A DNA stretch of 49,930 bases from an uncultured Candidatus Actinomarina sp. (lineage in GTDB: Bacteria > Actinomycetota > Acidimicrobiia > Actinomarinales > Actinomarinaceae): NCBI GenBank assembly GCA_902533795.1, contig CACAND010000006.1:1-49930 (forward strand). The letters run 5' to 3'. The translations under genes and the position numbers were made by a program. Under the pieces are notes generated by a model. It ran no database searches. It saw nothing but the letters and a program-made list of their open reading frames with translations, and was not told the DNA's origin. Shown piece by piece: positions 946-36,062 of the stretch (position 1 is its first letter; every line of letters starts with the position of its first letter).

Positions 946-951
946 ATTTTA
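946..951 (-). promoter_or_regulatory. Candidate -10 box for the WYL operon
   Basis: TAAAAT on the minus strand, followed by nine bases and the ATG at 936. Transcription would begin about 2-3 nt before the start codon, so the mRNA would be nearly leaderless. An AGG lies in that interval and could instead act as a weak ribosome binding site if the real start site is further upstream. Confidence 0.4.
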
Positions 952-1011: not shown

Positions 1012-1017
1012 TAATAT
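1012..1017 (+). promoter_or_regulatory. Candidate -10 box for the ferredoxin gene
   Basis: TAATAT ends seven bases before the ATG at 1025, placing the predicted start site at or next to the A of ATG. No Shine-Dalgarno sequence is present. The box sits inside an imperfectly palindromic stretch, CTAATGTAATATTAG (1006-1020), with 5-base arms CTAAT/ATTAG that could also be an operator. A possible -35 (TTGTAT, 991-996) is only 15 bases away, which is short. Confidence 0.4.
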
Positions 1018-5172: not shown

Positions 5173-5178
5173 AATAAT

Positions 5179-5184
5179 ATTTTA
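5179..5184 (-). promoter_or_regulatory. -10 box for the acyltransferase-like gene (leaderless)
   Basis: TAAAAT on the minus strand is followed by exactly six bases and then the GTG start at 5172. The predicted +1 is therefore at or one base before the start codon, leaving no room for a ribosome binding site. It is the mirror of the trmL promoter in the same 50-bp divergent spacer. Confidence 0.5.
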
Positions 5185-5210
5185 CTGCTCTAATGGCTGT
5201 TGAATAGGAA

Positions 5211-5216
5211 TATAAT
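5211..5216 (+). promoter_or_regulatory. -10 box for trmL (leaderless)
   Basis: A perfect TATAAT followed by exactly six bases and the GTG start at 5223. Transcription should begin at or just before the GTG. No convincing -35 is seen 16-18 bases upstream. Confidence 0.55.
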
Positions 5217-5222
5217 ATTTAT

Positions 5223-10500: not shown

Positions 10501-10507
10501 AATTATG

Positions 10508-10591
10508 TGCGCGGAAGAGGACTCGAACCTCCACGGGTTTTACCCCACAGGATCCTTAATCCTGCGCGTCTACCAGTTCCGCCACCCGCGC
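10508..10591 (-). tRNA. tRNA-Leu(AAG)
   Basis: An 84-nt cloverleaf with a long variable arm. The acceptor GCGCGGG pairs with TCCGCGC (one G-U), the D-arm is GCGGAACTGGTAGACGC, and the anticodon stem is CAGGA/TCCTG enclosing the loop TTAAGGA. The anticodon is therefore AAG (CUU leucine; CUC and CUA as well if A34 is deaminated to inosine). The T-loop is TTCGAGT. The discriminator is A and CCA is not encoded. It aligns base for base through the anticodon with the tRNA-Leu(CAA) at 25631, which fixes the anticodon position. It sits 5 bases after secG and 7 bases before the amidotransferase gene. Confidence 0.95.
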
Positions 10592-25568: not shown

Positions 25569-25574
25569 AGTCTA
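25569..25574 (-). promoter_or_regulatory. Candidate -10 box for polA (leaderless)
   Basis: TAGACT on the minus strand is followed by exactly six bases and the GTG at 25562. It fits the TAnnnT form only loosely, so this is weaker than the TAWAAT cases in the window. It supports GTG over the TTG immediately upstream. Confidence 0.3.
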
Positions 25575-28924: not shown

Positions 28925-28930
28925 ATTTTA
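28925..28930 (-). promoter_or_regulatory. -10 box for nth (leaderless)
   Basis: TAAAAT (inside TATAAAAT) on the minus strand is followed by exactly six bases and the ATG at 28918. The predicted transcript has no leader. It lies in the 40-bp spacer shared with the divergent EamA gene. Confidence 0.5.
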
Positions 28931-28958: not shown

Positions 28959-29786
28959 ATGATTTTAAAAGATAAAAAACGTGCAATTGTTGCTCTTGTT
29001 ACATCAGCTTTACTTTTTGGTTCAACTTTTGCAGTTGTAAAAGATCTAATATCAGATATAACACCAGTAAATATTGTTTTTTTAAGATATCTTTTAGCTG
29101 CACTACTTTTTTTAATTACTGGTGGTATACCTGAAAAAGAATATCTAAAACCTGGTTTGTTGATGGGTTTGTTCTTGTGGGTTGGTTATATCACACAAAC
29201 GATAGGCCTTGAAACAACTTCGACAATAAATTCAGGAGTAGTAACTGGATTTTATATTGTATTAACTCCAATATTTTCCAAGTATATAAACAAAAACTTA
29301 ATCCAAAAAAGGAACATTATAGGATCAATCGCAGGATTTGCTGGCATTTTGTTGATAGCACTGAATGATCTCGATCAATTATTTGGAAATCTATTCACAT
29401 TAATTTGTGCTACTGCATATGCGTTACACATAGTTATGGTCGAAAAATATGTAAAAGATTTAAATATTTCAAAATTAATGTTTGTGCAATCAGCCGTTGG
29501 AAGTATTTTGTGTATTCCTTTTATAAATTATGAGAATTTAAATATAAGTTACAAATTCTTTGTACCAATCTTTTTTCTGGGATTTGTTGTAAATTTTTGT
29601 GCTTTTTACCTACAGCTATATGGTCAAAAATTTATAAATGCTTCAACAGCATCACTCCTGTTCGGTTTAGAGGGAGTATTTGCACTACTGATAGGTGTAT
29701 TTTTTGTTGGAGAAGTATTAAATTTATTAAATTGGGCAGGAGTAGTTTTAATGTTAGTGGCGATATTTTATGTTGTTAAAGAATAG
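28959..29786 (+). CDS. EamA/DMT-superfamily transporter
   Basis: A 275-aa protein with ten hydrophobic helices in two EamA repeats. The first has LLFGSTFAVVKDLI and VFLRYLLAALLF. The second has the matching YALHIVMVEKYVK and FVVNFCAFYLQLYGQKF. These proteins export metabolites such as amino acids or nucleobases, but the substrate cannot be inferred. It is monocistronic, divergent from nth, and overlaps the opposing small membrane gene by 11 bases at the 3' end. An earlier out-of-frame ATG at 28943 ends after ten codons. Confidence 0.9.
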   Translation: MILKDKKRAIVALVTSALLFGSTFAVVKDLISDITPVNIVFLRYLLAALLFLITGGIPEKEYLKPGLLMGLFLWVGYITQTIGLETTSTINSGVVTGFYIVLTPIFSKYINKNLIQKRNIIGSIAGFAGILLIALNDLDQLFGNLFTLICATAYALHIVMVEKYVKDLNISKLMFVQSAVGSILCIPFINYENLNISYKFFVPIFFLGFVVNFCAFYLQLYGQKFINASTASLLFGLEGVFALLIGVFFVGEVLNLLNWAGVVLMLVAIFYVVKE

Positions 29787-30039
29787 TTTCCTCTTTATTA
29801 ATACTGTTTAGATATTTCATAATTATTCTTAAAACAGCTACAAGAAAGAAAAAAGTAATTATTAAAATGATTAAGATTCTGGGTCCCTCTATGAATGGTA
29901 TTTCACATGCAATTAGGTCATTACATAAACCAAATCCGTCTCCACCATTTGATAAATTAAAAATAATCAATAAAGGGTAAGCGAGAATTACAACTAGTGA
30001 AACTAAAATTAAAAAAACTACTAATCTTAATAAAAACAT
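29776..30039 (-). CDS. 87-aa two-helix membrane protein
   Basis: Two hydrophobic helices (about residues 4-26 and 52-74) flank an extracytoplasmic loop containing two cysteines (LCNDLIACEIPFIEGP) that could form a disulfide. The tail is basic. I recognise no family. It is divergent from thyX across 29 bases, with TAAAAT nine bases before its ATG. Confidence 0.6.
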   Translation of the reverse strand: MFLLRLVVFLILVSLVVILAYPLLIIFNLSNGGDGFGLCNDLIACEIPFIEGPRILIILIITFFFLVAVLRIIMKYLNSINKEETIL

Positions 30040-30048
30040 TATGAAATT

Positions 30049-30054
30049 ATTTTA
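30049..30054 (-). promoter_or_regulatory. Candidate -10 box for the 87-aa membrane protein gene
   Basis: TAAAAT on the minus strand, nine bases before the ATG at 30039. It overlaps a TAATAT on the plus strand (30053-30058) that could be the thyX -10, so the two genes may compete for polymerase in a 29-base spacer. Confidence 0.35.
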
Positions 30055-34451: not shown

Positions 34452-34457
34452 ATTTTA
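34452..34457 (-). promoter_or_regulatory. -10 box for dnaE (leaderless)
   Basis: TAAAAT on the minus strand followed by AAATTT and the ATG at 34445. The six-base interval puts +1 at the start codon. No Shine-Dalgarno sequence is possible. It lies in the 27-base spacer after the pseudouridine synthase gene, giving dnaE its own promoter within the lspA-rlu-dnaE row. Confidence 0.5.
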
Positions 34458-36056: not shown

Positions 36057-36062
36057 TAAAAT
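36057..36062 (+). promoter_or_regulatory. Candidate -10 box for ileS
   Basis: TAAAAT nine bases before the ATG at 36072. An alternative pair is TTGAAA (36025-36030), 17 bases, AATAAT (36048-36053), which would give a leader of about 12 nt. AAGGA abuts the ATG too closely (1 base) for normal Shine-Dalgarno spacing. The 110-bp spacer holds no T-box-like structure. Confidence 0.35.

Follow-up and report, generated by a model that had tools for sequence, protein, structure and literature searches.

The 50-bp spacer at positions 5173–5222 of the window (the whole stretch of 49,930 nucleotides that was analysed) separates two divergent genes, both beginning with GTG (5172, minus strand; 5223, plus strand), and raises the question of whether the two −10-like hexamers within it, back to back and each exactly six bases before its GTG, are promoters from which transcription would begin on the start codon itself. 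A sequence-only reading had proposed leaderless translation from such boxes here and at other genes of the window; the positions of both hexamers were confirmed, and the boxes of nth, dnaE and polA (6 nt) and of the ferredoxin gene (7 nt) were likewise found where it had placed them (Table 1). The window corresponds to contig 6 in a 13-contig genome (979,545 bases, 90.3% completeness) whose size, GC content (32.2% in the sampled 393 kb), median intergenic spacer (2 bp) and rhodopsin gene all match the reference values for 'Ca. Actinomarinales' (~1 Mb, ~32.5% GC, median intergenic spacer 2 bp, rhodopsin; PMC7771536); the nearest relatives of its DnaE are Acidimicrobiia and other actinobacteria, 'OM1 bin76' among them.

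Table 1. Putative −10 boxes and flanking genes in the window; distances are counted from the end of the box to the start codon.
Feature	Coordinates	Strand	Remarks
TAAAAT of WYL-domain gene (Pfam WYL)	946..951	-	9 nt before ATG 936
TAATAT −10 box of ferredoxin gene	1012..1017	+	7 nt before ATG 1025
acyltransferase-like gene, 519 aa	3613..5172	-	GTG 5172-5170; Pfam PF01757, E 1.9e-11; predicted leaderless
TAAAAT −10 box of acyltransferase-like gene	5179..5184	-	6 nt (5173-5178) to GTG
TATAAT −10 box of trmL	5211..5216	+	6 nt (5217-5222) to GTG
trmL-like SpoU methylase gene, 148 aa	5223..5669	+	GTG; Pfam PF00588, E 6.4e-28; predicted leaderless
weak TAGACT −10 box of polA	25569..25574	-	6 nt before GTG 25562
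TAAAAT −10 box of nth	28925..28930	-	6 nt before ATG 28918
TAAAAT of 87-aa gene	30049..30054	-	9 nt before ATG 30039
TAAAAT −10 box of dnaE	34452..34457	-	6 nt before ATG 34445
TAAAAT of ileS	36057..36062	+	9 nt before ATG 36072

The position of the trmL GTG start follows from a TAG in the same frame, five codons before it (open frame 153 aa, against 148 aa from the called start). Matches to TTGACA in the 50-bp spacer were poor (best 2/6 and 3/6), in agreement with the weak −35 boxes described earlier, and TANAAT at six bases on both sides arose in 6e-5 of shuffles of the 50 bp, a figure that is post hoc. Across the genus, trmL is preceded by TATAAT at a distance of exactly 6 nt from its GTG or ATG in 18/18 genomes, while the six bases between box and start codon vary among the 18; the orthologs of the acyltransferase-like gene carry TAAAAT or TATTAT 6 or 7 nt before the start (in G014, for which another start was chosen automatically, the box was located by visual inspection, at 7), and the whole spacer measures 49–51 bp.

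The positional test was carried out on ~393 kb (~40%) of the same genome and on parts of five genomes of the genus, for which 22 genomes were listed (G006, G007, G011, G012, G014 and G020 among them). Genes were called with a purpose-built caller, which chose starts without any upstream signal and included a term for the absence of stops; spacer n denotes the nucleotides between the end of TANNNT and the start codon (spacer 6: box at −12 to −7). In the own genome, TANNNT was found at spacer 6 in 25/152 operon-leading genes vs a background of 8.0 per position, and at spacers 7, 8 and 9 in 11, 16 and 16 of the 152; the peak at spacer 6 recurred in G006 (25/149), G011 (20/115), G020 (21/125), G012 (7/49) and G007 (5/33). 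Pooling of the six genomes, with one gene per ortholog group, gave 58 of 345 non-redundant leaders at spacer 6 vs 16.4 (p = 8e-17) and 35, 31 and 29 at spacers 7, 8 and 9 vs the same 16.4; these counts are not fully independent, because the genomes are related. The sharp enrichment at −12 to −7 that the sequence-only reading had predicted, and its view that such placement is unlikely by chance in AT-rich DNA, were thus both borne out. In-frame ATG/GTG codons within coding sequences showed no peak at spacer 6; at the dnaE loci of actinobacteria, the boxes peaked at spacers 6–8.

The excess over background in the own genome amounts to 17/152 leaders at spacer 6 and to ~36 at spacers 6–9 together. 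The leaderless class would comprise roughly a third of the leaders and nearly half of the divergent ones, so that its earlier extension to most operon-leading genes was overstated. A pooled EM motif fit returned a clean −10 matrix with a share of 0.36, to be read only as a rough guide because its shifted control was also high (0.53, with diffuse positions); single-genome EM fits (mixing share 0.74–0.94, shifted control windows equally high) were dropped as over-fitted.

The start codons and the bases before them differ between boxed and unboxed genes. TTG starts were absent at spacer 6 (0/58) vs 32/172 among genes without a box at spacers 5–11 (p = 9e-5) and nearly absent at spacers 7–9 (2/90); GTG starts were enriched at spacers 6–9 (25/148 vs 9/172). 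A pyrimidine stood at −1 in 50/58 genes (86%) at spacer 6 vs 90/172 (52%) without a box (p = 2e-6). SD (Shine-Dalgarno) sequences were found in 1% of spacer-6 genes vs 21% of genes without a box; this depletion was not taken as proof, because a box at that position fills the SD window and so partly forces the absence. In mycobacteria, leaderless translation starts from ATG and GTG and not from TTG, which works with a leader (PMC4633059), and start sites in M. tuberculosis show a −1Y/+1R habit (PMC3898074).

It is proposed, with a probability of roughly 0.9, that the boxes at −12 to −7 are the −10 elements of sigma-70-type promoters from which transcription would begin on the first base of the start codon, yielding leaderless mRNAs; the missing TTG, the pyrimidine at −1 and the genus-wide 6-nt spacing, none of them used in the sequence-only reading, support this. 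RNA polymerase would bind a housekeeping promoter of the −10-only type, with no recognisable −35 element, and would start on the A or G of ATG/GTG; the resulting mRNA would lack both a leader and an SD site, and its 5'-terminal AUG or GUG would be recognised directly by the ribosome, as in mycobacteria. At 5173–5222, two back-to-back promoters would thus give two leaderless mRNAs, for the acyltransferase-like gene and for trmL; the two directions are probably mutually exclusive, a polymerase at one promoter blocking the other, since the 50-bp spacer is shorter than one RNA polymerase footprint. The genome as a whole would be mixed, with the leaderless class beside genes that use weak SD sites, because the 16S anti-SD is intact (the 16S ends ...GGCTGGATCACCTCCTTTCT) and operon-internal genes show a weak SD-like G enrichment.

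Another explanation, considered very improbable, takes the boxes for AU-rich ribosome-standby or S1-binding elements within ordinary leaders, the true promoters lying further upstream; such elements have been proposed for SD-poor bacteria, and this genome is AT-rich (32% GC) with many genes lacking an SD sequence. The signal, however, consists of one defined hexamer, TAnnnT, held at a constant distance, and not of a diffuse AU richness; it is accompanied by the pyrimidine at −1 and the exclusion of TTG, and it is weaker at operon-internal genes. It is missing, moreover, in AT-rich non-actinobacterial loci, which when pooled and passed through the same pipeline gave a dip and not a peak (3, 2, 4, 3; SD in 40%), and present in high-GC relatives of the class (55–69% GC), which peak at spacers 6–7 (e.g., G025, 13/84 vs 0.4 per position).

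Real −10 boxes with a start a few bases further upstream, and hence very short leaders of 1–5 nt, are a very improbable account of the class as a whole: at spacer 6, the 86% of pyrimidine at −1 speaks for initiation directly on the codon, and with initiation any further upstream fewer than 6 nt would separate it from the box. Such leaders agree better with spacers 7–9, where TANNNT is enriched with no pyrimidine bias at −1 (46/90), and where G at −1 is commoner at spacer 7 than in unboxed genes (23% vs 9%). Since that bias is missing, some of these genes may carry leaders of 1–3 nt, and short leaders are likely to describe part of the spacer 7–9 class.

Coincidence in AT-rich DNA, although background alone gives ~8 TANNNT per position among 152 leaders and the WYL-domain gene fits it, is refuted for the class by a peak at one position that is repeated in six genomes and by 18/18 conserved trmL loci, and can scarcely be credited except at single genes, some of which may still be chance. 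Comparison with the distant G020 gave boxes kept at spacer 6 in 5/7 cases (own genome) and 6/8 (G006), numbers that are small; of the boxes lying further away from the start, 10/39 and 9/51 were kept. As a separate observation, TANNNT also peaks at spacer 6 among operon-internal genes, to a lesser extent (56 vs ~20 per position), and their spacer-6 boxes are conserved in 97/129 cases vs 390/821 for boxes at 11–33, hinting at internal leaderless promoters within operons.

Among divergent pairs 15–130 bp apart, a box at spacers 6–9 was found on 77/132 sides vs ~31 in shuffles; at 46–70 bp, both sides were boxed in 10/16 pairs vs 0.9 in shuffles, which makes the trmL layout the norm for short divergent pairs. 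Two conserved pairs are shorter still, the genes being, as we take them to be from their sequences and from general knowledge and not from a family search, ispH/der and a pyridoxamine-oxidase-like gene/dtd. The spacer of ispH/der is exactly 26 bp in 10/10 genomes of the genus (G000:C2:13466-13491 and relatives), each ATG being preceded at 6 nt by a −10 box and the two boxes standing back to back, 2 bp apart; that of the dtd pair is a near-invariant 17 bp in 7/7 genomes (G020:C2:55240-55256 and relatives), with opposed −10 boxes that overlap, each 7 nt from its ATG, and looks like a single two-way promoter. That in Actinomarinales an entire spacer of 17–26 bp may serve as one two-way promoter, both mRNAs beginning at their start codons (dtd, ispH/der), and the trmL pair (49–51 bp) being a less compact form, is a tentative proposal, given somewhat less than an even chance; if it is true, the opposed genes of such minimal units would compete with each other for the same RNA polymerase site.

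Bacterial bidirectional promoters (Warman et al. 2021, as described in PMC10268837) are defined by starts 7–25 bp apart, 18 bp being the commonest distance. The opposed −10 boxes are alike here, and the 17-bp dtd spacer, which would give 17–18 bp, is the only one among the present pairs to fit the range; the trmL pair, with separate boxes and predicted starts ~51 bp apart, falls outside the strict form (7–25 bp, overlapping −10 boxes). A difference is that both directions here yield protein-coding and probably leaderless mRNAs.

That Actinobacteria have leaderless genes is well established; what is new is their predicted occurrence in Actinomarinales, the most novel element being the conserved divergent pairs 17 and 26 bp apart with a box on either side. 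Zheng et al. 2011 described TAnnnT ~10 bp upstream of the start, with no SD, at ~20% of genes in 86/89 actinobacterial genomes (PMC3160421); the same box precedes the start here, whereas those genomes are described as high-GC and the present one has 32% GC and a box with a more A-rich middle. In Mycobacterium, about a quarter of genes have leaderless mRNAs, with TANNNT without a −35 and a purine +1 flanked by a pyrimidine (Cortes 2013, PMC3898074; Shell 2015, PMC4633059); TANNNT, the −1 pyrimidine and the use of ATG/GTG but not TTG are common to both, the starts being mapped there and predicted here. M. tuberculosis uses ATG/GTG similarly in both classes, in contrast to the GTG enrichment of the leaderless class here. 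Among the papers searched there was no report of leaderless genes in Actinomarina, and a single one named both Acidimicrobiia and leaderless mRNAs, the Acidimicrobiia only in an anti-SD table; a Red Sea start-site metatranscriptome names Actinomarina only as possibly lost during filtering (PMC5069720).

Leaderless expression would thereby extend to very small, AT-rich marine actinobacteria and would fit genome streamlining, promoter and start being held in ~12 bases. Gene finders that rely on SD sequences may misplace starts in such genomes, and the 5' ends of metatranscriptomes can be checked against an exact expectation: the box ends 6 nt upstream of ATG/GTG, and a pyrimidine directly precedes the codon. 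The short pairs point to natural divergent promoters only 17–26 bp long.

The remaining boxes of the window are conserved to different degrees. That of nth is kept in G006, G011 and G012, where the upstream DNA is identical; that of dnaE sits within a 27-bp same-strand spacer, and its 6 nt are kept in G006 and G011; in place of the weak polA box, G006 and G011 have TAAAAT, likewise 6 nt from the start; and the ferredoxin box remains at 7 nt in G006 and G011 and even in the distant G020. For the three genes with TAAAAT nine bases before the start, the positions were correct, but two are weak as examples: the WYL box is not conserved, relatives show AGG-type sites in its place, and it is probably not a leaderless promoter; ileS keeps its box at 9 nt in relatives, but AAGGA adjoins its ATG, which leaves it an ambiguous case. 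At the 87-aa gene the 9 nt are kept in close relatives only, and a choice between a short leader and none is uncertain. The product of this gene (29776-30039, minus strand) has no NCBIfam or Pfam match and 91–92% identity in relatives; in each of the four genomes compared, 29 bp separate the gene from thyX. A tRNA-Leu with the anticodon AAG (A34, unusual in bacteria) was called at window positions 10507-10591 (minus strand), and likewise in G006 and G020.
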